From positions 434,001-498,000 of the forward strand of contig NZ_FONV01000009.1 in the NCBI RefSeq assembly GCF_900113015.1: 64,000 nucleotides of DNA. Reading direction: 5' to 3'. Position 1 is the stretch's first letter. Every line of letters begins with the position of its first letter. The notes under the pieces were generated by a model. It ran no database searches and was not told the DNA's origin. It saw only the letters and a list, made by a program, of their open reading frames with translations. The translations under genes and the position numbers were made by a program. This stretch comes from Actinoplanes philippinensis. GTDB lineage: Bacteria > Actinomycetota > Actinomycetes > Mycobacteriales > Micromonosporaceae. Below are positions 37,149 to 53,662 of the stretch, in pieces.

Positions 37149-37220
37149 TCTTGACGCCGACGGAAGGCGTCCAGCGTGGCAGCGGGACGGCGTTCCGGAA
37201 CTGTTCCGTCCACGTCAAGT
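37149..37220. promoter_or_regulatory. Regulon element D: inverted pair of 20-bp half-sites
   Basis: The left half-site (37149-37168, TCTTGACGCCGACGGAAGGC) and the right half-site (37201-37220, read on the minus strand as ACTTGACGTGGACGGAACAG) face each other. Each contains TTGAC and GGAAG/GGAAC spaced 11 bp. It lies between the importer operon and AfsR-like regulator 2. Outer length is 72 bp, 20 bp longer than the pair at 41284-41335, that is, about two helical turns. Confidence 0.7.
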
Positions 37221-37341
37221 GCGACACCGCGTCCACCCACGACGGTCTCCCCCACCGGCGAGCCGCTGCCCTACAGTGCTAACCGGGCGGTCCGGGGACG
37301 GACGGTCGAGGGCAGGAGCGGTACGAGGTGGGAGCGCAACG

Positions 37342-40300
37342 GTGGACGCGTCATCGCCGGCCCGGCACGACGGTCTTCGTTTGCAGATCCTCGGCCCGTT
37401 ACGGATCTGGCGCGACGGCGCCGAACTGGATCCCGGGCCTCCACAACAGGCCTACCTGCTGGCCCTGCTGCTCGTCCGGGCCGGGCGACCGGTCAGCGCG
37501 ACCGAGTTGATCGACCTCATCTGGGCCGACGACGTCCCCCCGTCGGCGCTCAACATCCTGCAGAAGTACGTCGGGTCGCTGCGGCGGCTGCTGGAACCGT
37601 GGCTCGAACCCCGCGAGACCGGTTCCTACCTGCAACGCCGTGGCGCCTTCTATCTCTTCACCGCGGGGCCGCACGTGCTCGACGTGGTCCGGTTCCGTCA
37701 GCTGGCCGAGGCGGCCCGGACCGACGACCGGCCCGATGTGGCGCTCGATCAGTACGTACAGGCCTTGAGACTCTGGCACGGACCCTCCGGTGACGGTGCC
37801 GGACGCCGGCCGGATGCCGGCTTCGAGGCCCTGGACCTGGAATATCTCGGTGCCGCGGTGGCCGCCGCCGAACTCGCCGTCACGCAGGGCCGGGCCGAAC
37901 AGGTCCTCCCCGCGCTGATGCGGGCCGCGGAGATGGCGCCGCTGGACGAGCTGGTCCAGGCCGCGCTGGTCGTCAACCTGCACACCGCCGGCCGGCCGGC
38001 GGCTGCGCTGACGGTGTTCCAGCGGGCACGATCCCGCCTGGCGGAGGAGCTCGGCATCGAGCCCGGGCCGGCGCTGCGGTCGGCCCATGAGCGTCTGCTG
38101 GGCCGGCCCTCCGTCGCCGACACCGGCGGGTCGACGCCGGAACCGCCGGTCGACAGACTGGTCGGGCGAACGCGGGAACTGGCCGATCTGCGGCAGATCA
38201 TGGACACGACGTTCGCCGGCGGGTCGGGCCTGGTGATCGTCGAGGGTGAGCCCGGCGTCGGCAAGACGCGGTTGCTCCTGCAGGCGGACGCCGAGATGGC
38301 GGCCAGAGGTGGCCTCGTCGCCTGGGGCAGGTGCGCGGAGAGTGCCGGGGCGCCGTCGATGTGGCCGTGGATCCAGGTGATCACCACGCTTCTGCGGCGT
38401 CTGCCCGCCGGTTCGCGCCGTCCATGGCACACCGGCGAGCTCGGCCGGCTGGTGGGGTCACCGGCCGAGGTGACCGAGACGCCGGTGCTGCCGGACAGCG
38501 GTGCCCGTTTCCGCCTCTTCGAACAGGCCGTCGCGCTGATCGCGGAAGTCTCGGCGCGGCAGCCGGCGCTGCTGCTCGTCGACGACCTCCAGTGGGCCGA
38601 CATCGCATCGCTGGACCTGCTCGGCCACCTCGCGGCCAGGCTGCCGAGGGGCGCAGCCGTCATCGGCACCCTCCGCGATCGCGCTCCACTGGCCGGCCCG
38701 GCTGTCGCGCGTACCCTCGCCGCACTGAGCCGGCGGCCCGGGATGCGCCGCATCCACCTCAGCGGGTTCAGTCAGGCAGAGGTCGCCGAACTGATCCGGC
38801 ACGAGACCGGGCAACAGCCCGATGCCATGGCCGCGCACCGCATCCACGCCCGGACCGGCGGCAACGCGTTCTTCGTCCGCGAACTGGCCCGCCATCTGCG
38901 CGCCGGCGGCCGGCCCGCCGGCGCGGCCCTCGACGCCGGCGTGCCCGAAACCGTGCTGGACGTCGTCCGCGACCGCGTGACCGACCTCGGTGACGTGGCG
39001 ATCGACCTGCTCAGGACCGCCGCGCTGATCGGCCAGGACATCGACCTCGCCCTTCTGGCCTCCGCCGCCGGCGTCGACGTGCAGGCCTGCCTCGACCGTC
39101 TGGGACGCCTGCATGCGCTCGGCCTGGTCGAGCCGGTGGCCGGCGATCCCTACTCGTTCCGCTTCACCCACGACCTGCTTCGCGAGTCGGTCACCGCCAC
39201 GACACCGCCGGCGCAGACCCCGGGGCTGCACCTGCGCATCGCGGAGGCGATCGAGGCGACGACCTCCGACGACAGCGCGATGGTGGAACGCCTGGCGCAC
39301 CACCGGTGGGCCGCGGGACCGCTCGCCGAACCGGCCCACACCGGGCGAGCGCTGCTGGAGGCGGGCCGCTGCGCGGCGAGCAAGTCGGCGCTGGAGGCGG
39401 CCACCGGCCATCTGCGGCTGGCGGCACAGGTGGCCCGCGACGCCGGTCTGGCCGATCTGGAGCTGTCCGCCCTGTCGCTGTTCATCGCGGTGGACGGCAT
39501 GCGGGCCGGGTACGTCGGCTCGGCGCTGGACCTGCTGGAGCGTGCCGAGGAACTGGCCCGCGAACTCGGCCGGGAGCGGGACGCGGCGGACTTCCTGTTC
39601 TCCCGCTGGGCGGCGTTCTCCCAGGGCATCCAACTGGAACGGGCCGGCCGGCTGGCCCGGCGCCTGCTCGATCAGGGCGAGAACTCGGCCGATCCGACGG
39701 TCCGTGCCTACGGGCGGCACGCGTGGGGCATCCACAACTGGGACATCGGGAACATCGCCGAGTCGTACCGATATCTCAGCCTGTCCGTCCCCCCGATGCG
39801 CACCGGCACGATCCGGCGCGAGCAGGCGCCGCTGCGCCACGATCTGCAACTGCTCTCACCGGTGATGCTCGGCCTGATGACGGCGTTGCACGGCGATGTC
39901 GACGGCGCCCGGGAGCAACTCGACGCCGTCGAGGACGCCGCCGGTGACGACCCGTACGCGATCACGGTGTGGTCCGCCTTCTCGGTCACCGTCGCCGCGC
40001 TGGCCGGTGATCCGGTCTGGGCTCGCCGCGCCGCGCAGCGTGGCATCGCCCAGGACCCGGAGTTCTCGTTCGTCTTCCTCGGCAGCTACCAGCGTCTCGC
40101 GCTCCACTGGGCACGGGCCATGTCCGAACCCGGCGGTGACCTGGACGCCGCCGCGGCCGCCGAACGGCTCATCGCCGCCGCCCTGCTCGACCCGCCACGC
40201 TCGGGGCTGGCCACCTGGTACGGACTGCTCGGGGAGATGTGGCTGCGAGCCGGCCGCCTGAACGACGCCGCCGAGGCTCTCGACCGCGCCGACCGGTTCG

Positions 40301-40512
40301 TCTCCGTCCACGGGCAGCGCTACGCCGAGGGTTTCCTGCTGGTGCTGCGGGCGATGCTGATGCGAGCCCGCGGCCTGCCGCCCGCCGTGGTCCGGGCAGC
40401 CCTCGAACGAGCCCGGGTGCTGTCGGAGGATCGCGGCGCACACCTGTTTGCGCGCCGCGCCGAGCAGATGCTCCGCTCAGACCCGCCGGGAACGCGCCCC
40501 GACGGGCCGTGA
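37342..40512 (+). CDS. AfsR-like regulator 2: OmpR-type wHTH, BTAD, AAA/NTPase, TPR
   Basis: A 1056-residue paralogue of regulator 1. GTG 37342 follows GGGAG by 7 nt. The order is winged helix (LRLQILGPLRIWRDGAELDPGPPQQAYLLALLL), BTAD to about 245, NTPase with GEPGVGKT near 303 and LLLVDDLQWAD near 412, then TPR-like repeats. Its C-terminal half is much closer to regulator 3 than to regulator 1 (shared DLLERAEELAR, AADFLFSRWA, AWGIHNWDIGN). It is divergent from the importer operon across element D and convergent with an alpha/beta hydrolase. Confidence 0.92.
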   Translation: MDASSPARHDGLRLQILGPLRIWRDGAELDPGPPQQAYLLALLLVRAGRPVSATELIDLIWADDVPPSALNILQKYVGSLRRLLEPWLEPRETGSYLQRRGAFYLFTAGPHVLDVVRFRQLAEAARTDDRPDVALDQYVQALRLWHGPSGDGAGRRPDAGFEALDLEYLGAAVAAAELAVTQGRAEQVLPALMRAAEMAPLDELVQAALVVNLHTAGRPAAALTVFQRARSRLAEELGIEPGPALRSAHERLLGRPSVADTGGSTPEPPVDRLVGRTRELADLRQIMDTTFAGGSGLVIVEGEPGVGKTRLLLQADAEMAARGGLVAWGRCAESAGAPSMWPWIQVITTLLRRLPAGSRRPWHTGELGRLVGSPAEVTETPVLPDSGARFRLFEQAVALIAEVSARQPALLLVDDLQWADIASLDLLGHLAARLPRGAAVIGTLRDRAPLAGPAVARTLAALSRRPGMRRIHLSGFSQAEVAELIRHETGQQPDAMAAHRIHARTGGNAFFVRELARHLRAGGRPAGAALDAGVPETVLDVVRDRVTDLGDVAIDLLRTAALIGQDIDLALLASAAGVDVQACLDRLGRLHALGLVEPVAGDPYSFRFTHDLLRESVTATTPPAQTPGLHLRIAEAIEATTSDDSAMVERLAHHRWAAGPLAEPAHTGRALLEAGRCAASKSALEAATGHLRLAAQVARDAGLADLELSALSLFIAVDGMRAGYVGSALDLLERAEELARELGRERDAADFLFSRWAAFSQGIQLERAGRLARRLLDQGENSADPTVRAYGRHAWGIHNWDIGNIAESYRYLSLSVPPMRTGTIRREQAPLRHDLQLLSPVMLGLMTALHGDVDGAREQLDAVEDAAGDDPYAITVWSAFSVTVAALAGDPVWARRAAQRGIAQDPEFSFVFLGSYQRLALHWARAMSEPGGDLDAAAAAERLIAAALLDPPRSGLATWYGLLGEMWLRAGRLNDAAEALDRADRFVSVHGQRYAEGFLLVLRAMLMRARGLPPAVVRAALERARVLSEDRGAHLFARRAEQMLRSDPPGTRPDGP

Positions 40513-40532: not shown

Positions 40533-41240
40533 TCACTGCTGTGCCGCCTTCTCGATCAGGGCGACGGTCGCGCCCGGCCGGGACACGAAGATCATGTGTG
40601 ACGCCCCCTCCACCACCTGGATCTCGCCACCGGTGCGCCGGGCCATGAACTCCTGGGCCATCGGCGGGATGATCAGGTCCGCCCCACTGATCAGGTGATA
40701 GCAGGGGATGCTGTGCCAGGCCGGGACACCGGTCGCCGGCTCCCCGAGGGCGGCCCCGGTGGCGGGCCGCTGGGTAATCGCGTACACCTGGGCATCGGCG
40801 GCGGGAACGTCGCCGGCGAAATGGGGATGGAAGACGCGGGGATCCACGTAGAGGTCGACCTGCCCGTCGGCCAGCGCGACGGGCTTCAGCGACTCGCCGA
40901 TGGTGCTCCCGGGGAACTTCTCGACCAGGGACTGCGCGCTCTCGCCCTCTTCCGGCACGAACGCCGCCAGGTACACCAGCGCGCGGACGTGCGGGTTGCC
41001 GGCCGCGGCGGCGGAGATCACCGCGCCGCCGTACGAGTGTCCGACAAGCACGATCGGCCCGCTGACATCCTGCAGCAGGGCCCGCACCTGTGCCGCGTCG
41101 GAGGCGAGCCCGCGCAGCGGATTCGGTGCGGCCACCACGGGATGCCCGTCGGAGACGAGCCGTCTGATGATCGCGGCGAAACCGCTGCTGTCGGCGAAAG
41201 CACCGTGCACCAGCACGATGGTGGGTTTCTCGGGGTCCAT
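40533..41240 (-). CDS. Alpha/beta hydrolase (cytoplasmic)
   Basis: A 235-residue hydrolase with an HGAF oxyanion segment (VLVHGAFADSSGF), nucleophile elbow GHSYGG near 84-89, and the catalytic His in VEGASHMIF near the end. The acid is probably in the ISGADLIIPP region. The family includes EstC/pyrethroid-hydrolase-like esterases. GAGGTGA precedes ATG 41240. It has no signal peptide. A paralogue with a Tat signal is at 47112. Element A (41284-41335) lies directly upstream. Confidence 0.9.
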   Translation of the reverse strand: MDPEKPTIVLVHGAFADSSGFAAIIRRLVSDGHPVVAAPNPLRGLASDAAQVRALLQDVSGPIVLVGHSYGGAVISAAAAGNPHVRALVYLAAFVPEEGESAQSLVEKFPGSTIGESLKPVALADGQVDLYVDPRVFHPHFAGDVPAADAQVYAITQRPATGAALGEPATGVPAWHSIPCYHLISGADLIIPPMAQEFMARRTGGEIQVVEGASHMIFVSRPGATVALIEKAAQQ

Positions 41241-41283: not shown

Positions 41284-41335
41284 ACTTGACGGCGACTGGA
41301 CGGCGCTTCGGCGGCGCGTTCCGTTGCCGTCAAGT
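41284..41335. promoter_or_regulatory. Regulon element A: inverted pair of 20-bp half-sites
   Basis: The left half-site ACTTGACGGCGACTGGACGG (41284-41303) faces ACTTGACGGCAACGGAACGC (minus strand, 41316-41335). The heptamers TTGACGG and TGGACGG in the left half are 11 bp apart. It lies upstream of the hydrolase gene at 40533-41240, and its right end covers the stop codon of AfsR-like regulator 3. Confidence 0.72.
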
Positions 41336-44300
41336 CGGTTGGCCGGCCGCGAGCTCCCGCAGCATCCGGGCAGCGCGGTGTGCGTAGAGGTGTGCTTCGC
41401 GGTCGACGGACAGTGCGTGGGCTCGCTCGGCAGCGGCCCGGACCTCGTCGAGGGGCGCTCCGGACGCCTGCACCAACTTCGCGCGGATCAGCAGGATCAG
41501 TCCTTCGGGATAGCGTTGCCCGAACGTGTCGAGCGCCCGATCCGCGCAGTCGAGCGCCGTGGCGGCCTGCTCCAGTTGCCCGGCCCGCAGCCGTGCCTCA
41601 CCGAGCAGCCCGAACCAGGTGGCCACGCACGAACGCGGCGTGTCGAGCAGATTCGCCCGGATCAACCGCTCCGCACGGTCCGCGGCCCCGGCCGGGTCCC
41701 GGCCGGCCATCGCCAGCGCCCACAGCCGGGCCAGCCGCAGATAGGAGCCCTGGAAGACGAAGGTGAACCCGGGGTCCACGGCGATTCCCCGTTGCGCCAC
41801 GCGCAGCGCCTCCGCGGCGTCGCCGACGTTCGCAGCGGTACGTGCGGCCATCGACGCCCAGACCGTGATCATGTACGGGTCGTCGCCGGCCAGTTCCTCC
41901 AGGGCGCCGAGCAGCGCCCTGGCGGTGCTCAGGTCACCGTGCTGTGCCGTCATCTCGGCGAAGATCGCAGCCGGCAGCATCTGCAGGTCGTGCCGCAACG
42001 GGTCGTCACCGCGGCGGGCGGCGTGGCCACGAAGGACCTCACCGGCTTGCCGCAGGTGCCGGACGCCCTCGCCGACGTTGCCGATGTCCCACTGGTGAAT
42101 GCCCCAGGCGTTCAGGCCGTACGCGCGGATGGTGGGATCGGCGGCGGCCCGCCCCTGCTCGAACAGCCGGCGCGCCAGTGGTGCCGCCCGGTCCAGCTCG
42201 ATGGCCTGCGCGTGGCCGGCCCACCGGGAGAACAGGAAGTCGGCGGCCTCACGGTCCCGGCCGAGGCGGCGGGCGAGGTCCTCGGCCCGTTCCAGCAGGT
42301 CGAGCGCCGCGGCACCGCCGTACAACGATCGCATCCCCACCACGGCCGCGAGTTGTTTGAGCGCGGACAGTTCGTGCTCGGCCAGGCCGGCCGCCCGGGC
42401 GACGGACGCGGCGGTACGCAGCTGCCGTTCCGCGACGTCGAACGCCGACTTCGCCGCCGTGATGCCGCCCGCGCGGGCCAGCGCGGTCGTCGTGCGCGCC
42501 GGATCAGCGAGCGGTCCCGCGGTCCAGAGGTGATGGGCGAGGCGCTCGGCGACGGATCCGGTGTCCACGGTCAGCTGTTCCAGAGCGTCGGCGACGCGCA
42601 GGTGCAGCCGGGGAACCTCGGAGGGCAGGGTCACGGCGACGACGGACTCGCGGATGAGGTCGTGCGGGAAACGCACCGAGAACGGATCACCGGTGGAGAA
42701 CGTGAGCAGACCCAGAGCGTCCACGGTGTCCAGCAGCAGCAGACACGCCCGGATCTGCAGACCGGCCGCATGAGCGAGCACGCGGACCTCCACGTCCCGG
42801 CCGATCACGGCGGCGATCTGCAGCACGGCGCGGGCCTCCGGGGCGAGCCGCCCGGCGCGTTCCTGGACCACATCGCGGACGGTGGCCGGCACCCCGGCCC
42901 GTTCCACCGCCGCCGCGGTGATGACTCCCGCGTCCGTGGCCAGCAGGCACGACAACTGGTGCACGAAGAACGGATTGCCGCCGGTACGGGCATGAATGCG
43001 CTGGGCCACGCCGGCGCCCGGATCATGACCGATCCGATCGCGGACCAGTTCGCCCACCTCGTCCGGCACCAGTGGCACCAGGCGGACCCTGCGGTGGGCG
43101 GGGATCCGGCCGGCGGTCGCGAGGAACCGGGTCAGCTGTGAGCCGGGGACCGGCACCCGGTTGCGCAGCGCCGCGATCAGCGCTGTCCCCAGCGGGAGCC
43201 GGGCCGTGAGATGGCCCAGCACCTGCAGGGACGAGGGGTCGGCCCACTGCAGGTCGTCCACCACCAGCACCACCGGCCGCCGCGCGGCGACCTGCCCGAT
43301 CAGGGCGGTGATCTGCTCGAACAGACGGAACGGGGCGCCGCTGTCCGGCATCCCCGAGCTGTCCGGCATCTCACCGCGCGGCTGGACGAGGCGGCCGAGT
43401 TCGCCGTCGAGGCTTTTCCGGCGAGCCGGGGCGGCCACGTTCTCGAGCAGCCTGCCGACGATCTGCGTCCAGGGCCACATCGCGGGTGTCCCGTCGCCCT
43501 CCAGGCAACGCCCCCACACGACCAGCACATCGGACAGGTCCGTGGCGGCCTCTTCGAGCAGACGGGTCTTGCCGATCCCCGGTTCGCCCTCGACCAGCAC
43601 CAGACCGGTCTCCCCGGATCTGGCGGCGGTCACGGCCTGCCGCAGGATCTCTAGCTCACCGGCCCGGCCGACCATGCTGCCCGGCGTCGCCGACGCCGGG
43701 CCGGCCCTGCGCGGTTCGCCCACCGGTCCCCGGCCCGCGTCGTGGCTCCGGCGCGGCCGGCGGACCGGCCCCAGCACCTGGTCGTAGGCGTCGAGCACGG
43801 CCGGCCCCGGGTCGGCGCCGAGGTCCTCGGCAAGCCGGGCGCGGAACGTCGCGAACGTCGACATCGCCTCGGCCTGCCGCCCCGCGGCAGCCAGCATGAC
43901 GATCAGACAGCCGTGCAGCGTTTCGTGGAACGGCGCCATCGCGGCGGCAAGTCGCAGAGGGGTGAGCAGGCGGTCGGCCCGTCCGCACGCGACCGCGAGG
44001 TGGGTCGCCGCGACACAGGCGTCGAAGAACTCGTTGTCGAGGGCGGCGAACAGCGTCCTCATCGTCCCGGTATGCCCCAGGCCGTCTCCCGCGTGGCCAC
44101 GCCACAGTTGCAGAGCCGAGAGGTACGCGTTCAGAGCGCTCTCCCCCGTGGACCGCTTCGCCGAGGCCACCAGCCGCCGGAACTCGACCACATCGAGCGT
44201 GCCGGCGCCGGCGTCGAAGAGGTAGCCCCGCTCGGATCGCCGCAGGTAGGACCCGCTCTCGCGGGTGGACAGCGCGGGTTCGAGCAGCCGGCGCAGCGCG

Positions 44301-44524
44301 CCGACGTACTTGTGGACGATGTTGACCGCGGTCGCCGGGACGTCGGCCTCCCACACCATGCCGATCAGCTCGTTGGTGGTGACCTGCTGGTCCGCGGAGG
44401 CCAGCAGCGCGGCCAGCAGGCCGGCCTGCTGGGGCGGTCCCGGGTCGATCTCGACACCGTCTCGCCAGACCCGCAGGGGGCCGAGGATCTCCAGGTGCAG
44501 TGAGGAGCGCGAACGCCGGTCCAT
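41330..44524 (-). CDS. AfsR-like regulator 3: OmpR-type wHTH, BTAD, AAA/NTPase, TPR
   Basis: A 1064-residue paralogue. The winged helix covers about 8-98 (LHLEILGPLRVWRDGVEIDPGPPQQAGLLAALL) and the BTAD runs to about 250 (ARLAEDLGADPGPAVLDAYDQVLG). Walker A GEPGIGKT is near 310 and Walker B VLVVDDLQWAD near 418. TPR-like repeats follow (DLLERAEDLARRLGRDREAADFLFSRWAGHA). A TATATC element lies upstream of ATG 44524 with no clear ribosome site. It is divergent from the cupin operon across element B. Confidence 0.92.
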   Translation of the reverse strand: MDRRSRSSLHLEILGPLRVWRDGVEIDPGPPQQAGLLAALLASADQQVTTNELIGMVWEADVPATAVNIVHKYVGALRRLLEPALSTRESGSYLRRSERGYLFDAGAGTLDVVEFRRLVASAKRSTGESALNAYLSALQLWRGHAGDGLGHTGTMRTLFAALDNEFFDACVAATHLAVACGRADRLLTPLRLAAAMAPFHETLHGCLIVMLAAAGRQAEAMSTFATFRARLAEDLGADPGPAVLDAYDQVLGPVRRPRRSHDAGRGPVGEPRRAGPASATPGSMVGRAGELEILRQAVTAARSGETGLVLVEGEPGIGKTRLLEEAATDLSDVLVVWGRCLEGDGTPAMWPWTQIVGRLLENVAAPARRKSLDGELGRLVQPRGEMPDSSGMPDSGAPFRLFEQITALIGQVAARRPVVLVVDDLQWADPSSLQVLGHLTARLPLGTALIAALRNRVPVPGSQLTRFLATAGRIPAHRRVRLVPLVPDEVGELVRDRIGHDPGAGVAQRIHARTGGNPFFVHQLSCLLATDAGVITAAAVERAGVPATVRDVVQERAGRLAPEARAVLQIAAVIGRDVEVRVLAHAAGLQIRACLLLLDTVDALGLLTFSTGDPFSVRFPHDLIRESVVAVTLPSEVPRLHLRVADALEQLTVDTGSVAERLAHHLWTAGPLADPARTTTALARAGGITAAKSAFDVAERQLRTAASVARAAGLAEHELSALKQLAAVVGMRSLYGGAAALDLLERAEDLARRLGRDREAADFLFSRWAGHAQAIELDRAAPLARRLFEQGRAAADPTIRAYGLNAWGIHQWDIGNVGEGVRHLRQAGEVLRGHAARRGDDPLRHDLQMLPAAIFAEMTAQHGDLSTARALLGALEELAGDDPYMITVWASMAARTAANVGDAAEALRVAQRGIAVDPGFTFVFQGSYLRLARLWALAMAGRDPAGAADRAERLIRANLLDTPRSCVATWFGLLGEARLRAGQLEQAATALDCADRALDTFGQRYPEGLILLIRAKLVQASGAPLDEVRAAAERAHALSVDREAHLYAHRAARMLRELAAGQPT

Positions 44525-44661: not shown

Positions 44662-45225
44662 ATGAACTCGACGCACCCGGTCCGGAGAGTGGTGACCGGC
44701 CATGACGCCGCCGCACAAGGCGTGATCCTCCAGGACGGATCGCCGACCCGGGTGATCCCGGTCGGCGGCCCCGGCGGCCCGACCTTCTACGAGGTGTGGA
44801 GCACCCGCGAGACGCCCGCGGTGATCGACCGGCAGTCCGGTGAACCGGCCGAGGAGGGCCTGGTGCTCGCGCCTCCGGCCAACGGCACCCGTATCCGCGT
44901 GATGGACTTTCCGCCGGAGGACGACCGGATTCGCAACCTGACCAGCGCGGGGGCCGCCGAGAAGTTCGCCGAGATGGGCGGTGCCGACGCCGCCGTCTCC
45001 ACGGCGAGCGCGCCGCATCCGCTGATGCATCGCACCCAGACCGTCGACTACGCGATCGTCATCGACGGGGAGATCACCCTGGTCCTCGACGGCGGGGAGA
45101 CCACTCTGCGGGCCGGGGACATCGTGGTTCAGCGCGGTACGGGCCACGCCTGGGCCAACCGGTCGTCGGCGAACTGCCGGGTCGCGTTCATCCTGATCGA
45201 CGGCCAGTACACCGACGGGCTGTGA
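44662..45225 (+). CDS. Cupin-domain protein
   Basis: A 187-residue protein. The C-terminal cupin barrel (about 110-185) has HRTQTVDYAIVIDGEITLVLDGGETTLRAGDIVVQRGTGHAWANRS, which carries the two cupin motifs, including PxG-like turns and His metal ligands. The N-terminal 100 residues are an extended lead seen in cupin_2 proteins acting on small organic acids or aromatic acids. It is probably a metal-binding oxygenase, isomerase or sensor. AAGGA precedes ATG 44662. It is followed after 4 nt by an AhpD-like gene. Confidence 0.85.
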   Translation: MNSTHPVRRVVTGHDAAAQGVILQDGSPTRVIPVGGPGGPTFYEVWSTRETPAVIDRQSGEPAEEGLVLAPPANGTRIRVMDFPPEDDRIRNLTSAGAAEKFAEMGGADAAVSTASAPHPLMHRTQTVDYAIVIDGEITLVLDGGETTLRAGDIVVQRGTGHAWANRSSANCRVAFILIDGQYTDGL

Positions 45226-45229
45226 ACCG

Positions 45230-45823
45230 GTGGAGCCTCCTTCGCGCATCTCCCCCATTCCACCCGGCGACCTGAGCCCCGAACTGCGTGAGGTGCACGA
45301 CGGCATCGCCGGCCTCGTCGCGCACGAGCAGGAGCGCATCGTCATCCTGGACGACGACGGCGCTCTGATCGGGCCGTTCGCGCCGATGCTCACCTTCCCC
45401 ACCTTCGGGGTGCCGGCGCTGATGCTGCAGCGGGCGGTCGCGGCCGAGGCCCGCCTCGACCCCGCCGTCCGCGAGGTGGCGATCCTCACCGTGGGCGCCG
45501 CCTACGGTGCCCGCTATCTGTTGTACGCCCACGAGCAGACCGCTGATCAGGTCGGACTGCACGCGGCCCAGGTCGCGACGCTGGCGTCCGGAGGCCGTCC
45601 GCCGGACCTGACCGACGATCAGGCCGTCGCCCACGACGTCGCCCGGGCGTTGACCGCCGGCCGCATCCTGCCGGGTTCCACCTACGACCGGGCCGTCCGG
45701 TCGCTGGGCCGGGAGGGCGTCGGCGAGCTGGTGTTCCTCATCGGCAGCTACTGCCTGACCGCGGTCGTGCTGAACTGTTTCGACGTGCCGGTCCCGGTGG
45801 GTCACCGGGGACCGTCGACGTAA
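45230..45823 (+). CDS. AhpD/carboxymuconolactone-decarboxylase-like protein
   Basis: A 197-residue alpha-helical protein with the CMD/AhpD-like core ALMLQRAVAAEARLDPAVREVAILTVGAAYGARYLLYAHEQTADQVGL. The redox CxxC of true AhpD is absent (YAHEQ region), so a decarboxylase- or lyase-like role is more likely than peroxidase recycling. It is coupled closely to the cupin gene (4-nt gap, GTG start). The pair looks like a small catabolic or biosynthetic module. A strong terminator follows. Confidence 0.8.
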   Translation: MEPPSRISPIPPGDLSPELREVHDGIAGLVAHEQERIVILDDDGALIGPFAPMLTFPTFGVPALMLQRAVAAEARLDPAVREVAILTVGAAYGARYLLYAHEQTADQVGLHAAQVATLASGGRPPDLTDDQAVAHDVARALTAGRILPGSTYDRAVRSLGREGVGELVFLIGSYCLTAVVLNCFDVPVPVGHRGPST

Positions 45824-45835
45824 CACGTCGCTCGG

Positions 45836-45887
45836 CCGGAAGGGTGCCGGCGTCAGCGGTCACGCGCCGACGACGGCACCCTTCCGG
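45836..45887. terminator. Bidirectional hairpin terminator
   Basis: CCGGAAGGGTGCCG (45836-45849) pairs perfectly over 14 bp with 45874-45887. It lies between the AhpD-like gene and the convergent MFS gene, its right arm being the last codons of the latter. Confidence 0.7.
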
Positions 45888-47098
45888 GCCCGGCTGTCAC
45901 GGCGGACGATCGTCACGACGTACAGCAACAGACCACCCGCGGTGAGCACGAACCCCGCCCAGACCGTGGACAGGGTGCCCCAGCCGGCGGCGAGGGTCAG
46001 CGCGCCACCGATCGCGCCGAGCGAGTTGGCGAGATTGAGGGCGGCCAGGTTGACCGCCCCCATCAGGGTCGGCGCGTCCGGGGCGAAGCCGGTCAGCCGG
46101 ACCTGCACCGTGGGGATCGCGACCATCATGCTCGCGCCGACACCGAACAGGCAGGGCAGCAGCACGATCAGGTTGTCGCCGGCGATGCCGATCGGCACGA
46201 GCAGGACCAGTGTCGCGGCGTACCCACCGATCAGGCCGCCGCTGGCGAAACGATCGGCGACGCGTCCGCCGAGCTGGTTCCCGGCCGCCATGCCGACACC
46301 GAAGACGGCGAGCGCGACCGGGACGAGCCCGGCGTCACGACCGGCGGCGTCGGTGATGAAGGGCCCGATGAACGTGTAGACGGCGAAGATGCTCGAGATG
46401 CCGAGCGCGGCCACCGCGAACATCACCCAGACGCCGGTACGGCGCAGGCCGCGCAGTTCACCGACGATCGAGCCGCCGTGCAGGTCACCGGTGCGCGGTA
46501 GCCAGGTGATCAGAGCGAATCCGGCGAGCACACCGAGGGCGACAACCGTCCAGTACATGGCGCGCCAGCCCGCGCTCTGACCGACCGCGGTGCCCAGCGG
46601 GGAGCCGACGACGGTGGCGACGGTGAGGCCGCCCATCACGGTGGCGAACGCCTTGCCACCCCGGCCCGGACCGTACACGTAGGCGGCGACGACCGCCCCG
46701 GCACCGAAGAACGCGCCCTGGACGCTTCCGGCGGCGAACCGGGCGACGACCAGCGATGCCAGATTCGACGCGAGCGCGGACAGGGCGTTACCGGCGAGCA
46801 ACAGCCCGATCAGGCCGAGCAGCAGGGTGCGCCGGTTGGCCCGGGCGGCGAGCAGGGTGATCGCCGGGGAGCCGATGACGACACCGACGGCGTAGGCGGT
46901 GATCGCGTACGTGGCGGTGGGCACGGGAACCCCGAGGTCGGCGGCGAACAGCTGGATGATGCCGTTGCTGCCGAACTCACCGGTGCCGATGGCGAAGGTG
47001 CCCAGCGCCAGAGCGAACAGGGTCAGTCCCGGCGCTCTGACTGCTCGGTGCCGGTTCTCCTCGGCTGCACATTGAGCTTCGTAGGCACGCTGATGCAT
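45860..47098 (-). CDS. MFS exporter (DHA1/AraJ-like)
   Basis: A 412-residue transporter with 12 predicted helices (LTLFALALGTFAIGTGEFGSNGIIQLFA opening, typical of DHA1 AraJ/CmlA-like drug or sugar efflux proteins; AARANRRTLLLGLIGLL in loop 2-3). It starts 13 nt after the stop of the hydrolase gene and closes the operon headed by the flavoprotein fusion. Export of the operon product is a reasonable inference. Confidence 0.88.
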   Translation of the reverse strand: MHQRAYEAQCAAEENRHRAVRAPGLTLFALALGTFAIGTGEFGSNGIIQLFAADLGVPVPTATYAITAYAVGVVIGSPAITLLAARANRRTLLLGLIGLLLAGNALSALASNLASLVVARFAAGSVQGAFFGAGAVVAAYVYGPGRGGKAFATVMGGLTVATVVGSPLGTAVGQSAGWRAMYWTVVALGVLAGFALITWLPRTGDLHGGSIVGELRGLRRTGVWVMFAVAALGISSIFAVYTFIGPFITDAAGRDAGLVPVALAVFGVGMAAGNQLGGRVADRFASGGLIGGYAATLVLLVPIGIAGDNLIVLLPCLFGVGASMMVAIPTVQVRLTGFAPDAPTLMGAVNLAALNLANSLGAIGGALTLAAGWGTLSTVWAGFVLTAGGLLLYVVTIVRRDSRARKGAVVGA

Positions 47099-47111: not shown

Positions 47112-47906
47112 TCAGCAGGCGGCGAGCTTGATGAGGTCGGTGACCGCGGCCGGCTGGGAGATCATCGCGACGTGTGAGGCGCCGATCTCCCGGATCCGCG
47201 CGCCGGCCCGCCCTGCCATGAAACGCTGTGCGGCGACCGGTAGCACCTGGTCGTCGCGGGCCGCGAGGTACCAGGAGGGGATGCCGGCCCAGGCCGGGGC
47301 GGCGGACGGCTCGCCGAGGGCGCGCAGATCAGCCGGTCGCTGGCCGGCCCACAGCAGCCGGGCGGCGGTGGCGGGCACGTCGCCGGCGAAGACGCCCGGG
47401 AACGCGCCGCGCTTGATGTAGGCGTCGACGAGTCCCTCGCCGTAGGGGCGGAAGTCGAGGGCCGCTTCGGTCAGCCGGGTTCCGGGGTACCGGTTCTGCA
47501 GGTCGATCAGGCTCTCCCCGCGGTCCGGCGCGAAGGCGGCCACGTAGACCAGCGCTCGTACGTCCGGGTTGCCGCCGGCCGCGTTCGTGATCACCATCCC
47601 GCCGTAGGAGTGCCCGACGAGCACGACCGGGCCGTCGATGGTGGCGAGCAGGCTGGCCAGGTAGGCGGCGTCGGCGGACACGCCGCGCAGCGGATTCGCC
47701 GGTGCGATCACCGGATACCCGGCGCGCAGGAGCCGGTCGGCGACACCGTTCCAGCCGCCCGCGTCGGCGAACGCCCCGTGCACCAGCACCACGGTCGGCG
47801 TGGCCCGGGCCGGAGCGGTTCCGGCCTGCGCGGCCGGGGCGCCGAGCACGGCGCCGGCGGTGATCGCGGCGGAACCGGCGAGAAGAGAACGGCGGGTGGT
47901 GGTCAT
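47112..47906 (-). CDS. Alpha/beta hydrolase with Tat signal (exported)
   Basis: A 264-residue paralogue of the hydrolase at 40533. TTTRRSLLAGSAAITAGAVLGAPAAQA is a twin-arginine signal. The mature part has VVLVHGAFADAGGW, GHSYGG near 115-120 and the C-terminal His in IGASHVAMIS. Its ATG overlaps the stop of the flavoprotein fusion (ATGA), so the two are translationally coupled. It would act outside the membrane, perhaps on a product exported by the MFS protein that follows. Confidence 0.9.
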   Translation of the reverse strand: MTTTRRSLLAGSAAITAGAVLGAPAAQAGTAPARATPTVVLVHGAFADAGGWNGVADRLLRAGYPVIAPANPLRGVSADAAYLASLLATIDGPVVLVGHSYGGMVITNAAGGNPDVRALVYVAAFAPDRGESLIDLQNRYPGTRLTEAALDFRPYGEGLVDAYIKRGAFPGVFAGDVPATAARLLWAGQRPADLRALGEPSAAPAWAGIPSWYLAARDDQVLPVAAQRFMAGRAGARIREIGASHVAMISQPAAVTDLIKLAAC

Positions 47907-50476
47907 CGGATTTCCTCCATGGTCGAGGTGGATTCGGCGGTGATGGTGATGTCGCCGGTCGGCAGGGTCTGGCAGGCCAGCAGCCAGCCGTCGGCCAGTT
48001 CGGCGGTCGAGAACATGCCCCGGCTGTCGGTCTCGAAGGTGCCGCCGAGGACCCGCACCCGGCAGGTCCCGCAGGAGCCCTCACCGCAGGACTGAGGCAG
48101 CCGGACACCGGCGGCATTGGCCGCGTCGAGCACCGATTGCCCCGGCCGGCACGTCACGGCCGGTCCGCCACCGGCAAGGGCGATGGTGTACGCCGTGACG
48201 CCGCTCGCCGCCGCGGCGAGAGCCACCGCGTGGGCCCGTTCCCGCCGGGTCCGGCTGCTGCTACCGGACACGAACGCCTCGGTGTGGATGGCCTGCCTCG
48301 GCACCCGGAGCGAGGTCAGGACCCCGATCAGGTCCTGCATCATCGGCGCGGGCCCGCACAGATGGACACGGGTGTCGCCGTCGACAAGGGGAGCCAGGTC
48401 GGCCTCGCCGACGCGGCCGTACCAGTCGGTGACGACCACCTTCACCACCAGGCCCGGCAACCGCCGGCGCAGTGCTGTCAGCTCCCGGCTGAACAGGACC
48501 TCGTGCTCGTCCCGGAAGCTGGCCAGCAACACGATCCGGCCGCGGTGGCCGGCGTCGGCGGCCGCGGTCAGCACGCTCAGCAGCGGAGTGATCCCGACGC
48601 CGCCGCTGATCAGCAGCAGGGTCTCGGTCTCCACGCCGCCGGTCCAGGTGAATTCGCCGTACGGGCCACTCACCCGCAGTGCCTGACCGGTCGTCACCTC
48701 CTGGTGGAGAAAGGCCGAACCCAGCCCCTCCGGCTCGCGCCGGACCGCGATCTCCAGGAAGGCGGTCTGCTGCGGGCCGGTGCAGATCGAGTACGACCGC
48801 TCGATCGGCTCCACGGCGACCGGCAGCTCGACCTTCACGTACTGCCCGGCGGTGAAGGTGAACGGCAGGGGCCCGGAGCCGAGCGGTTCGAGACGCAACC
48901 GCCGTACGGTCGGGGTGAGTGATTCGATCGCGGCCACCCGGAGGTAACCCTGCCACGGCGTGCCGGGATCCGGCGGCGGCGGCCCCTTCCGGACGGCGCG
49001 CCACAGAGCGCCCACCTGCCGCGGTCTCAGCACCGCGTTGGCCGCCATCAGACCGCCCGCCAACGCCCCCACCACGCCGGAACCCCAGGCGTCCTGCCCC
49101 GCCACGAACAGACCCTTGATCGGGGTACGGCAGCCGGCCACCGGCGAGCGCAGCCGCTGCGGGGTCGCCGCGAGGCCGTAGAAGGACCCCCGGACGCTGT
49201 TCTGGTAGTTCTCGAACGACAGCGGGGTCGCGAGTTCGGTGAAGGCGATCATCTTGCGCAGGCCGGGCCACTGCCGGTCCAGGCGGGTGATCAGCCGTTC
49301 CGCCAGCAGCTGTTTGAATTCGCGGTAGCTCTCCGGCCGGTCGTCGGCCACGCTGCCGCGCCACTGCTCGACCACCGCCGGGTCGACCAGTTCGAGCGCC
49401 TCCATGGTGTGGCGGTGGGCCGCCGGATTGTTGAGCGACGGGAGCGAGACGTACAGGGTGCCCTCGCCGTCGAGATCCGGCATGAGCCAGTGGTTCTCGC
49501 CGCGCAGCCCGAAGTCCGCGGGTGACCCTTTCAGCCCGATGAACAGCATCACGGCCGACATCTCCGCCGGCAGGTCGGTCAGCCGTCGGTCCTGCCCGCT
49601 GAGCGCGTACGTGTTGCGGACGCCGGCCGCCGAGACGACGGTGCCGGTCCGGACCCGGTATCGGCGCCCGGTGGCTGTGTCCTCGACGTCCACACCGGTC
49701 ACCCGGCCCCGGTCGGTGAGGATCTCGAGGACCCGTTGCCGGGGGCGCAGTTGCACGCCGTACCGCTGGAGGATCTCGGTGATGATCCGGCCCAGCTCGG
49801 CCGGGCCGCCGACCGGATGGGCGGTGCCGTCCATGAAGAACGTCAGCGGAACCGCGGCGTGATAGCCGAACGCGCTCGATCGCGGCGCCGTTCCGTAAAG
49901 ACCCCATCGGGCGGCGAAGATCGCTCGGAGCCGGGGGTCACGGAAGCTGCGTGCGACCTGGTCCGACACGGATCGGTACGTCTTCGGGAACAGCGCCCGG
50001 ACCATCGGGGCGCCGACGTTGCGCACACCGGCCGGAAACGAGGCGAGGACATTGCGCGCTGCCAGCCCGATCATCGCCCGGCGGATGGTCCGGAAGAATG
50101 CGTCGATCGCGGCGGCCTCGTCCGGGAACGATTCGACCAGGCGCTCGCGGAATCGATCCCGGGTGGCCGGCACGGCGAAATCGAATTCGGGGAAGTGCAG
50201 CACGTCGTAGTCGTCGGGCAGGGGCGACAGTTGCGCCCGGCCGTCGGTCATGAACTCCAGGAACGGTCCCGCGTTCGCGCTCATGTAGTGCAGGCCGGTT
50301 CCGAAACGGTATTGCCCGGCCCGGGAGAACTCGTGGGTCATCCCGCCGATCGTGTAGTGCTGTTCGAGCACCAGGACGCGCCGCTCGCCGAACTGCGCGA
50401 CAGCCCGGGCCGCCGCCAGCCCGCCCATTCCCGAGCCGATGACGACGACGTCGGCTTCCTCGTTGTTGTCATTCAT
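47903..50476 (-). CDS. Fusion flavoenzyme: retinol-saturase/CrtISO-like domain + FNR + 2Fe-2S ferredoxin
   Basis: An 857-residue protein starting at ATG 50476, behind AAGGGAG. Residues 1-490 are a phytoene-desaturase-superfamily flavoprotein most like retinol saturase/carotenoid isomerase (VVVIGSGMGGLAAA, LEQHYTIGGMTHEF, FGTGLHYM, and a C-terminal FAD motif FVAGQDAWGSGVVGALAGG). About 507-745 is a ferredoxin-reductase module with RSYS, GGVGITP and CGPAPMM. About 770-857 is a plant-type ferredoxin with CGEGSCGTC and LLACQ. It could pass electrons from NAD(P)H through FAD and Fe-S to the substrate flavin without partners. It is first in an operon with a hydrolase and an MFS gene, behind element C. 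Confidence 0.88.
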   Translation of the reverse strand: MNDNNEEADVVVIGSGMGGLAAARAVAQFGERRVLVLEQHYTIGGMTHEFSRAGQYRFGTGLHYMSANAGPFLEFMTDGRAQLSPLPDDYDVLHFPEFDFAVPATRDRFRERLVESFPDEAAAIDAFFRTIRRAMIGLAARNVLASFPAGVRNVGAPMVRALFPKTYRSVSDQVARSFRDPRLRAIFAARWGLYGTAPRSSAFGYHAAVPLTFFMDGTAHPVGGPAELGRIITEILQRYGVQLRPRQRVLEILTDRGRVTGVDVEDTATGRRYRVRTGTVVSAAGVRNTYALSGQDRRLTDLPAEMSAVMLFIGLKGSPADFGLRGENHWLMPDLDGEGTLYVSLPSLNNPAAHRHTMEALELVDPAVVEQWRGSVADDRPESYREFKQLLAERLITRLDRQWPGLRKMIAFTELATPLSFENYQNSVRGSFYGLAATPQRLRSPVAGCRTPIKGLFVAGQDAWGSGVVGALAGGLMAANAVLRPRQVGALWRAVRKGPPPPDPGTPWQGYLRVAAIESLTPTVRRLRLEPLGSGPLPFTFTAGQYVKVELPVAVEPIERSYSICTGPQQTAFLEIAVRREPEGLGSAFLHQEVTTGQALRVSGPYGEFTWTGGVETETLLLISGGVGITPLLSVLTAAADAGHRGRIVLLASFRDEHEVLFSRELTALRRRLPGLVVKVVVTDWYGRVGEADLAPLVDGDTRVHLCGPAPMMQDLIGVLTSLRVPRQAIHTEAFVSGSSSRTRRERAHAVALAAAASGVTAYTIALAGGGPAVTCRPGQSVLDAANAAGVRLPQSCGEGSCGTCRVRVLGGTFETDSRGMFSTAELADGWLLACQTLPTGDITITAESTSTMEEIR

Positions 50477-50510
50477 GTTCGCTCCCTTTTGGCCAAGGGT
50501 GGCGAGACCG

Positions 50511-50552
50511 ACTTGACAACGACTGAATGAAATCGTCCAGGCTTCGTTCAGT
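50511..50552. promoter_or_regulatory. Regulon element C: one 20-bp half-site plus partial mate
   Basis: ACTTGACAACGACTGAATGA (50511-50530) matches the half-site of elements A, B and D, with TTGAC and TGAAT 11 bp apart. Its mate is reduced to TTCAGT (50547-50552), which mirrors ACTGAA at 50522-50527. It stands 34 bp upstream of the fusion-enzyme start. Confidence 0.62.
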
Positions 50553-50629
50553 GCCGCGCCATAACGTCCGCCGGTGACGACGCCGAAAATGGCTCGAATG
50601 TGGCCCTCAACCGGAAGGCGGCAACCGAC

Positions 50630-50839
50630 ATGCACAAGGACGCGAACGCGGTGCGCTGGGGCGTACGCATCCACCTGATCTGCTACCTCGCCGCCAACCT
50701 GATCCAGGTGCTGGTGTGGTGGCTGTTCACACCGGACCTGCATTTCTGGCCGATCTGGTCGATCGTCGGCTGGGGCGCGGGCCTGGCCATCCACATCTGG
50801 GCGGCCCGCACGACGACCCGGCGGCTGCTCGACACCTGA
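50630..50839 (+). CDS. Small 2TM-domain protein
   Basis: A 69-residue membrane protein of the 2TM type (VRWGVRIHLICYLAANLIQVLVWWLFTPDLHFWPIWSIVGWGAGLAIHIWAA). The two helices are separated by a short aromatic loop. I favour ATG 50630, with GGAAGG upstream; GTG 50600 is an alternative. Its role is unknown; related domains are often fused to sensor kinases. It is divergent from the fusion enzyme, with element C in between. Confidence 0.75.
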   Translation: MHKDANAVRWGVRIHLICYLAANLIQVLVWWLFTPDLHFWPIWSIVGWGAGLAIHIWAARTTTRRLLDT

Positions 50840-51698: not shown

Positions 51699-53606
51699 TC
51701 AGGCGGGGCTCTGCTCGATGAGCTGCCACTGCTGCTGGCCGGCCGCGTTGTAGGTCCACTGGTCGATGTCCGCGCCGTCGGCGGTGCCGGCGCCGGCGAC
51801 GTTGAGCGCCAGCCCACTGAGCCGGTTGACCAGCACGTGGTGGCCGTCTCCGATCGGGGTGACGGCCCAGTGCTGCTGGGGCAGGTCCTCGTCGGGTCCC
51901 AGGACCACGTTGCCGCCGTTGCTTCGAGACAGGCCCGCGACCTGCATCAGCGTGCCGGTCGCGACGTTGCGGATCCGGCAGTAGCCGTCGACGGCGGCGA
52001 GGAGCTGCCACCTCTCACTCGCGGCACCGGTCGTCGGGCCCTGGACTACGTCCGTGCCGACACCGACGGCGGCCTTGCCGCTGTGCCGGGCGACGAGCCG
52101 GTAGGTGCCGCCGGTCGGCGCGGGCGGGGAGACCGGCCGGGGCGCGGCACGGCGGGCGCCGATGTGCAGGCCGCTCACGTTGGCGTAGCCGCCGGTTCCG
52201 GAGTGCACCTCCAGGCGTACGAAACCGGCGTTCCGAGCGGGCCACTCGGCGATCTTGGTGGTCCGGTCCGGGGCCCAGGTCCCCGAGGCCGCCTCGGTGA
52301 ACACGACGCCGTCCACACTGGTGGCGATGGTGTACGAGGTGATGTCGCCGTCGGTGAGGTAGTGCCGGTCCCACTGTTTCGGCAAGTATTCCAGGGTCGA
52401 GACGCCGTTCCAGACGCCGCCCAGGTCGACGGTGAGAGTGTGCGGCAGCGGCAGGCTCCAGGTCGACCAGCAGGTCTCGTAGTCCTTGTCGCTGAAGCCG
52501 TCGATCGCGCGCAGCGGTCCCTCACCGGTGTGGAAGCCGGTGGCGTAGGCGTTGACCGGGGTGATCTGGTGTTCGCAGCGCAGCGGCTGGGCCGGCAGAG
52601 CGGGCCGGGTCGCGGGTTTCCACGCCGCGCCCACCTCGGCGAGCCGGTTGACGATGTTGGTGTCCAGGCGGCCGTCGCGGTTGGGCGGGCAGTTGAGGAC
52701 CAGCGAGGTCCACTTGGGTTCGAGGTCGGCCAGGTGGTGCAGGATGGCGTCGCGGCCCATCGGCTCGGTGGACGGGGTGTCGGGGTGCCAGAACCAGCCG
52801 TTGCTGATGGTCTGCCCCTGGATGCCGGCGTACCTGTTGCCGTCCGGGGCGGTGATGCCCAGCGGCTCCTCGAAGTAGATGGCGTCGCCGAGCCACGGCT
52901 GGGAGAGGCCGCCGTGGTCGATCATCACGATGCCCGGCTGCAGCGATCGGACCAGCTCCTGCACCCGCTGGTACGGCACCTGCTGCTGGCCGGTCTGCCA
53001 GGCGTACCCGTCGGTGATGAACATGTCGATCGGGCCGTAGCCGGTCAGCAGCTCGCGGATCTGGTCGAGCACGTAGGTGACGTCGGCGGGCGTGACCGTC
53101 TCGGTGGCCGGAACCCCGTGCCGGCCGTACGCCTGCACGCCGTGGCTACGGTCCCAGATCGAGAAGTACAGGCCGACCTTCAGGCCGCGAGCCCGGAAGG
53201 CCCGCACGTACCGGGCGACGATGTCCTGCCGGTAGCCGCTGGCGGCCACGTTGTACGAGTTGGTCTTCGTGGGCCACAGGCAGAACCCGTCATGGTGTTT
53301 GGTGGTGAGGACGCCGTAGCTCATCCGCGCCGCCACGGCCGCCGCCGCCCACTGCTCGCAGTCGACCTGCGGTGGGGCGAAGGTGAGCGGGTTCTGGTTC
53401 GGCGCCGCCCACTCCTCGCCGGTGAACGTACCCATGTTGAAGTGGTTGAACATGCCGAACCGCAGGTCCGCCAGCCGCGCGAGATTCGCCGGCGACGGGC
53501 TCGCGTGCGCCGCTGCGGCGTCGGCGCTCACGCCGACGGCTCCGGCGACGGTCGCCATCGCGGCCGTCGACATCAGGGTACGGCGGGACACTCCGGAACC
53601 GGACAT
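51699..53606 (-). CDS. Secreted GH29 alpha-L-fucosidase with F5/8-type and ricin-type domains
   Basis: A 635-residue exported enzyme. ATG 53606 follows GAGGAG, and SRRTLMSTAAMATVAGAVGV is a twin-arginine signal. The GH29 domain (about 45-350) has FGMFNHFNMGTFTGEEW, TTKHHDGFCLW and YGPIDMFITDGYAW with the likely nucleophile Asp near 198. A discoidin-like (CBM32) domain spans about 355-480, and a ricin-type beta-trefoil with QQHW and QQQW repeats about 495-635. It would release fucose from polymers or glycans. A LacI-like palindrome lies upstream at 53663-53685. Confidence 0.9.
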   Translation of the reverse strand: MSGSGVSRRTLMSTAAMATVAGAVGVSADAAAAHASPSPANLARLADLRFGMFNHFNMGTFTGEEWAAPNQNPLTFAPPQVDCEQWAAAAVAARMSYGVLTTKHHDGFCLWPTKTNSYNVAASGYRQDIVARYVRAFRARGLKVGLYFSIWDRSHGVQAYGRHGVPATETVTPADVTYVLDQIRELLTGYGPIDMFITDGYAWQTGQQQVPYQRVQELVRSLQPGIVMIDHGGLSQPWLGDAIYFEEPLGITAPDGNRYAGIQGQTISNGWFWHPDTPSTEPMGRDAILHHLADLEPKWTSLVLNCPPNRDGRLDTNIVNRLAEVGAAWKPATRPALPAQPLRCEHQITPVNAYATGFHTGEGPLRAIDGFSDKDYETCWSTWSLPLPHTLTVDLGGVWNGVSTLEYLPKQWDRHYLTDGDITSYTIATSVDGVVFTEAASGTWAPDRTTKIAEWPARNAGFVRLEVHSGTGGYANVSGLHIGARRAAPRPVSPPAPTGGTYRLVARHSGKAAVGVGTDVVQGPTTGAASERWQLLAAVDGYCRIRNVATGTLMQVAGLSRSNGGNVVLGPDEDLPQQHWAVTPIGDGHHVLVNRLSGLALNVAGAGTADGADIDQWTYNAAGQQQWQLIEQSPA

Positions 53607-53662
53607 GAGACTCCTCGAAGCACGCGATGGCAGCAGCCGCACGACGATGTCGATACCGGCGT

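Follow-up and report, generated by a model that had tools for sequence, protein, structure and literature searches.

CrtISO- and retinol saturase (RetSat)-like flavoproteins are lone domains that receive their electrons from elsewhere. Retinol saturase is thought to need reducing power; the physiological donors are poorly known, and natural electron donors are known for only a minority of this superfamily. CrtI-type phytoene desaturases carry out desaturation with oxidised flavin adenine dinucleotide (FAD) and have no fused reductase. Reductases of the PaaE/GbcB/HCR type are separate proteins that serve oxygenases or the hybrid cluster protein, and the reductase of fused P450s is of the phthalate-dioxygenase-reductase type with flavin mononucleotide. 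According to a passage of PMC3382138, CrtISO requires reduced FAD and catalyzes its reaction without net redox change. Here, we analyzed a 64,000-nucleotide stretch of Actinoplanes philippinensis DNA (contig NZ_FONV01000009.1, positions 434,001 to 498,000; hereafter the window), in which one gene joins a CrtISO-like FAD domain, an FNR module and a 2Fe-2S ferredoxin. A fused or adjacent reductase is what a reduced-FAD enzyme or a true reductase would need. On the basis of its sequence, we think it reasonably probable that the product is a single-chain NAD(P)H-driven flavoenzyme that uses its electrons to act on, and probably to reduce, a C=C bond in a hydrophobic substrate.

The fusion gene (47903..50476, minus strand) encodes 857 amino acids (aa); the original prediction had its coordinates right and left the strand unstated. 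The start codon is an ATG preceded by AAAAGGGAG (judged by eye), and G+C content at codon position 3 was 0.85-0.94 in all 11 blocks across the gene. Frame, alignment, Pfam and NCBIfam divide the protein into an FAD domain (residues 5-495; 48992..50464, minus strand), an FNR module (residues 513-738; 48263..48940, minus strand) and a ferredoxin domain (residues 763-850; 47927..48190, minus strand), and the borders proposed earlier (1-490, 507-745 and 770-857) agree with the profile matches. All Pfam matches scored above the gathering threshold. The FAD domain is of carotenoid-isomerase/phytoene-desaturase type: its FAD_binding_2, DAO and NAD_binding_8 matches start at residue 9, and the best-covering NCBIfam model was the carotenoid isomerase TIGR02730, aligned almost from end to end (protein 9-480, profile 2-486 of 493, 1.8e-31). 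The score was far below the curated equivalog cut-off (109.5 versus 586.9 bits), and the same was true for the CrtI phytoene desaturase family model TIGR02734 (crtI_fam, 8.4e-29; 100.6 versus 238.1 bits). The FAD-domain profile also reached the solved structures 4rep (gamma-carotene desaturase) and 4dgk (phytoene dehydrogenase), and a CrtO ketolase model of NCBIfam matched the fusion protein weakly. Across 18 aligned proteins, the first Rossmann motif with E38 and the G460-Q461-D462 triplet were invariant. The domain had been described as CrtISO/retinol-saturase-like. The carotenoid isomerase matches bear out the former part at their low scores, whereas the likeness to retinol saturase would lie in motifs such as the GQD...G..GA..GG stretch; no RetSat sequence or profile turned up in the Pfam, NCBIfam and solved-structure searches that were run. 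'CrtISO/CrtI-type' would be a more cautious name for this domain than 'retinol saturase'.

The reductase module belongs to the FNR superfamily, as both of its Pfam domains exceed their gathering scores (FAD_binding_6, residues 513-611, 7.5e-12, 45.9 versus 21.1 bits; NAD_binding_1, residues 622-715, 1.4e-11, 45.4 versus 22 bits) and the RxYS (R560/Y562/S563) and GGxGxTP (G625-G626-x-G628) motifs, together with CGP (C707-G708-P709), are invariant in the 18 proteins. The C-terminal domain is a plant-type 2Fe-2S ferredoxin, with a Fer2 match at residues 771-840 (5.3e-17, 62 versus 21 bits) and four cysteines (C797, C802, C805 and C835, spaced CX4CX2CX29C) invariant in 18/18. GbcB/PaaE-type reductase models of NCBIfam cover residues ~512-845 in the same order, FAD, NAD(P) and 2Fe-2S, with scores below their cut-offs (PaaE TIGR02160, 155.8 versus 420.8 bits; GbcB NF058606, 158.8 versus 500 bits); unlike those separate proteins, the module here sits behind a flavoenzyme. 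The P450s with fused reductase (6kbh and 6laa, which we take to be of the CYP116B kind) likewise combine a catalytic domain with a reductase ending in 2Fe-2S, and their reductase part matches that of the fusion, but their catalytic domain contains haem. The genome of A. philippinensis itself encodes a 672-aa protein (L002, 997-3015 on contig C47) in which the same type of module follows another candidate flavin domain, PNPOx-like, and the catalytic domain is in this case unrelated. Pfam confirmed this PNPOx-FNR-ferredoxin arrangement in L044 from the same genus.

A sequencing error joining two genes near 48950-49020 had been named as the finding that would overturn the fusion. After leaving out the window's own copy and three loci taken as the same contig as others (L027, L029 and L033), 23 distinct homologues from other assemblies were extracted, 17 of which were in the alignment. 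All 23 are single unbroken frames through the suspected junction, with 62-84% identity to the window protein and lengths of 824-876 aa (start chosen nearest to that of the window protein), and a frame-joining error is therefore excluded. The dN/dS ratio of the first linker, which contains the suspected junction, was 0.10-0.58 in four comparisons, rough values from 17 codons; that of the second linker was 0.23-0.39 in three comparisons, the fourth giving no computable value, and that of the three domains was 0.16-0.57 in four. Frame error and misassembly were rejected on these grounds, and we regard the chance that two unrelated genes were joined in this way as practically nil. The junction is an ordinary linker, conserved in frame.

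One scan of genomes from named bacterial and archaeal species yielded 18 loci, comprising 17 full-length relatives and one match to FNR only, and a full-length match was present in 10 of the 60 genomes searched as relatives (own genome counted). The distribution of the window's clade is patchy. The fusion was found in 19 of 300 genomes drawn from the window's family. In the genus of G082 (probably Streptomyces), 3 of 392 genomes have it, and two further ones carry a lone FAD enzyme. In a phylum-wide draw of 396 genomes, the FAD-domain profile at 1e-30 matched 14, among which the window's clade occurred in its own genome only.

It should be noted that four phylum-wide matches, which seemed partial at first, have frames extending into FNR. 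On longer stretches, three proteins of 882-885 aa were found by profile to carry the FAD domain, FNR and Fer2. This distant fused clade includes six complete members of 881-885 aa (L085-L087 and L120-L122) and two cut ones (L088 and L124), and Pfam confirmed the domains in two of them, L086 and L121. Because the complete members combine these parts in an identical order, the window's enzyme does not stand alone in its architecture. The earlier remark that no such enzyme is known to have been described is consistent with our literature search, in which titles and abstract starts, from a literature lacking most subscription journals, gave no description of this enzyme type or architecture. Within the class of genome G113, 23 of 31 genomes matched the three-protein profile at 1e-100; an essentially full-length one-frame fusion was present in 14 of the 31, and the copy of G158 ends at a contig end. 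In five genomes of this class, the parts are encoded separately, with an FNR-ferredoxin gene 13-68 bp behind the FAD gene (longest frames; Pfam on one pair), and G147 and G158 carry both the split and the fused form.

Similar pairs were found elsewhere. On plasmid NZ_CP113927.1 of Ligilactobacillus acidipiscis, an FAD enzyme is followed, after a 2-bp gap, by an FNR-like gene, for which Pfam confirmed the FAD_binding_6 part only and gave no Fer2 match. A divergent TetR gene, the CrtISO-like FAD enzyme and the FNR-like gene stand in a row there (L113, 6347-9372), adjoined by pyruvate oxidase, FAD synthetase and riboflavin genes, and this appears to be a plasmid-borne flavin-dependent cassette. 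Locus L060 encodes an FAD-FNR fusion without Fer2, and no other genome among the 30 from its order matched at 1e-60. Adjacent genes for these partners in other bacteria thus support the earlier argument that the fusion would be self-sufficient.

To examine the origin of the pairing, trees were built for the FAD domain (42 chosen rows, 9 from the window's clade) and for FNR (33 rows). In the FAD tree, the window's clade (100/100) sits among lone enzymes, and the second fused clade is set apart together with the split relatives and the Ligilactobacillus pair (100/98); the two fused clades are thus separated, with lone enzymes on both sides. A single clade of all paired and fused enzymes, with L060 left free, was rejected (p-AU 0.0008). 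Because the FAD tree separates the fused clades and rejects one origin, recruitment of a reductase probably happened more than once, with two or more events being likely; the alternative is its loss in several lone enzymes. The FAD domain of L060 falls next to the window's clade (68/85), and so does its FNR (96/86), on a very long branch. Since both domains are placed there, L060 may share the fusion of the window's clade. An independent fusion event in L060, an idea that came from its poor score against the window's FNR, was not supported by the trees.

The distant clade also offers a metabolic setting. No COX1 above the cut-off (one sub-threshold fragment) and no cytochrome bd were detected in the 31 genomes of its class. 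Eight loci with a visible fusion were examined (L085, L086, L087, L088, L120, L121, L122 and L124), and six of them, L086 included, carry genes like the ligase, hydratase, nitronate monooxygenase or thiolase genes of L086; among the six, the ligase match of L088, on a short contig, is weak. L089 was not counted: a ligase-like gene is present, but the frame is cut before any reductase. With no terminal oxidase above the cut-off and acyl-CoA-type genes nearby, the evidence in this clade favours C=C reduction over oxygenation. In L086 (3291-15235), one run contains an acyl-CoA-ligase-like gene, a lone FAD enzyme, the fused FAD-FNR-ferredoxin enzyme, a nitronate-monooxygenase-like protein, an enoyl-CoA hydratase, two thiolase-like proteins and a TetR-like gene, and it resembles an operon for breaking down an unsaturated acid or a terpenoid. 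These context genes and the class without recognized terminal oxidases, as well as the well-supported branches separating the FAD domains, distinguish the distant clade from that of the window.

In the mechanism that we propose, NAD(P)H would reduce the FAD of the FNR module, and electrons would then travel one at a time via the 2Fe-2S cluster to the FAD of the CrtISO/RetSat-like domain. Once reduced, this second FAD would act on a C=C bond in a substrate that is hydrophobic and probably conjugated. We infer the electron path and its order from domain order and genome context; the direction of the reaction, the substrate and the physiological role are proposed in the same spirit. Net saturation appears most likely, followed by isomerization with reduced flavin.

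Such an isomerase, in which the reductase only keeps the FAD reduced while double bonds are moved or flipped with no net redox change, as in CrtISO, would agree with the carotenoid isomerase TIGR02730 being the best curated match of the FAD domain and with the dependence of CrtISO on reduced FAD described above. We nevertheless hold it to be unlikely, although deserving attention, since the score lies far under the family cut-off and a dedicated fused reductase seems to exceed what a catalytic redox state needs, helpful as it might be in air. Somewhat less likely still is an oxygenase, in which the second FAD, fed via the 2Fe-2S cluster, would activate O2 and hydroxylate, epoxidise or cleave a hydrophobic substrate. 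The C-terminal module is most like the reductases of oxygenases and of P450s with fused reductase, CrtO matches weakly, and an af470-like monooxygenase gene was called in 5 of 24 stretches (Pfam on one). On the other hand, the same architecture is common in the class where neither COX1 nor cytochrome bd was recognized, and flavin oxygenases usually take their electrons straight from NAD(P)H or from free reduced flavin. Reverse flow, with the FAD domain acting as a desaturase whose electrons pass via ferredoxin and FNR to NAD(P)+, would fit the matches to CrtI-type models; we find it improbable, the least favoured of these three, because reductases of this type run from NAD(P)H to the acceptor and because Pantoea CRTI donates electrons to oxygen or added quinone, as a part of PMC3382138 states.

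Several observations weigh against NAD(P)H-driven C=C reduction fed by a recurrently paired reductase. Against both the CrtISO and the CrtI model, the FAD domain scores far short of the cut-off, and its chemistry is thus not fixed, as desaturases and ketolases belong to the superfamily as well. Oxygenases are often supplied by FNR-ferredoxin modules of this type (the matches include PaaE, BenC, benzoate dioxygenase reductase and P450s). The AlphaFold model from 18 sequences was poor (mean predicted local distance difference test score 57.6, predicted template modelling score 0.41; the alignment is too shallow), so that no geometry supports the electron path. The oxidase scan covered COX1 and cytochrome bd, and many of the 31 genomes are incomplete. 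Acyl-CoA genes were not seen around L120, L124 or the five split loci, several of which are short contigs, and they were absent among the scanned neighbours of the window's gene; we carry over to the window's clade the electron logic of the distant clade but not its substrate. A common origin of the reductases in both fused clades is not rejected by the FNR tree (p-AU 0.08). No Fer2 match was obtained for L060 or for the FNR of Ligilactobacillus, so not every such pair includes the cluster. Finally, lone relatives on six plasmids had no adjoining reductase gene in the listed, incomplete annotation, which weakens a universal pairing of FAD enzyme and reductase. Two of these are near acyl-CoA ligases and one is near aldehyde dehydrogenase, amidase and nitrile hydratase genes; the others are near ABC transporter and stress genes, near nonribosomal peptide synthetase-type genes and in a fatty-acid-synthesis-like cluster (one each). 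A seventh plasmid record has no annotation in that stretch, and the archaeal match consists of two short genes.

The neighbourhood of the fusion gene was compared by tblastn of the window proteins on the 23 other loci, mostly with ~8 kb on each side (less in L007, L012 and L014). Counts based on gene calls had missed genes, and the recount added MFS genes in L013 and L069 and more copies of a small membrane protein. The start of an alpha/beta hydrolase gene (47112..47906, minus strand; Abhydrolase_6, 9.8e-26) with a twin-arginine-type leader, recognized by eye, overlaps the stop of the fusion gene; solved relatives of this hydrolase include pyrethroid hydrolase and SABP2. A homologue was present in 19 of the 23 loci, in 15 of them less than 450 bp from the fusion. 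Because the window's own genome has only eight hydrolases of this family (E <= 1e-12), chance can hardly explain the adjacency, with the caveat that these loci are themselves related. Thus, the coupling to a hydrolase in the original prediction is real at the family level; most of the neighbouring hydrolases are divergent, ~50% identical to that of the window. A closer one (69-86%) lies downstream of the fusion on the same strand in L013, L068 and L069, followed by an MFS gene as in the window. The MFS exporter of the window (45860..47098, minus strand; Pfam and NCBIfam) is Cmx/CmrA-like, below the curated cut-off (249.7 versus 400 bits). Its homologues of 79-87% identity occur in the same order and strand in these three loci, all from the window's genus, and a fourth match, in L022, has 31% identity. 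The proposed link to an exporter therefore holds among close relatives but not beyond them. In the simplest view, the fusion gene and the two genes behind it on the same strand, one for an ester-type hydrolase that is probably exported and one for an efflux pump, would contribute to an inducible pathway in which an unsaturated ester, either external or made by the cell itself, is processed.

Upstream of the fusion gene, a small divergent membrane protein with two predicted transmembrane segments (50630..50839, plus strand; PF13239, 3.8e-7 on the longer frame 50600-50836) has homologues in 15 of the 23 loci. The divergent promoter region between them (50477..50629) contains an imperfect inverted repeat with arms at 50522-50531 and 50543-50552. 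The full repeat was absent upstream of the 23 relatives scanned, and a fixed operator at this site was not supported. In 14 of the 23 fusion homologues, TTCAGT lies no more than 90 bp upstream of the gene and perhaps belongs to a shared promoter or activator site. A candidate controller is the large BTAD/AAA regulator at 41330..44524 (minus strand; BTAD 2.1e-24, AAA_16 4.9e-27), presumably SARP/LAL-like, with homologues in 14 of the 23 loci, in seven of them less than 400 bp from the fusion. Within 11 kb, the window holds two large regulators of this type (37219-40512, plus strand; 41330-44524, minus strand) and two hydrolases of the same family (40533-41240 and 47112-47906, both minus strand). 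Homologues of regulator and hydrolase co-occur near the fusion in other genera and may represent one regulatory module.

Near the operon, a cupin gene (44662..45225, plus strand; Cupin_2, 8.6e-10) is adjoined by a gene for a 197-aa protein without Pfam match (45230..45823, plus strand); homologues of both (76-77% and 80-82%, respectively) were found in 2 of the 23 loci, L010 and L015. None of the tested neighbours had a homologue in L017 and L073. Gene calls placed a cNMP-binding/thioredoxin-reductase-like gene in 5 of 24 stretches. No carotenoid gene was found among the seven neighbouring proteins scanned, a difference from the CrtISO setting. A single phytoene/squalene synthase-type gene is present in the genome, on a different contig, and no link between it and the window was found. 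An alpha-L-fucosidase with F5/8 type C and ricin-type lectin domains (51699-53642, minus strand) is unrelated to the fusion.

With the donor within the same chain, and with split and fused relatives at hand, the electron-donor question of this superfamily becomes testable in one purified enzyme. If the protein were indeed a self-contained polyene or enoyl reductase, it would be a handy biocatalyst requiring NAD(P)H only. More tentatively, at somewhat short of even chances, flavoenzymes of the CrtISO/RetSat kind may form a class of C=C reductases that has evolved repeatedly across bacteria and draws on NAD(P)H through an FNR of its own, either in the same chain or from an adjacent gene and in some cases accompanied by a 2Fe-2S ferredoxin; the enzyme of the window would then be a one-chain version that reveals, through genome context, the electron supply of the superfamily. 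The fused or adjacent partners in distant bacteria suggest how this enzyme family obtains its electrons.

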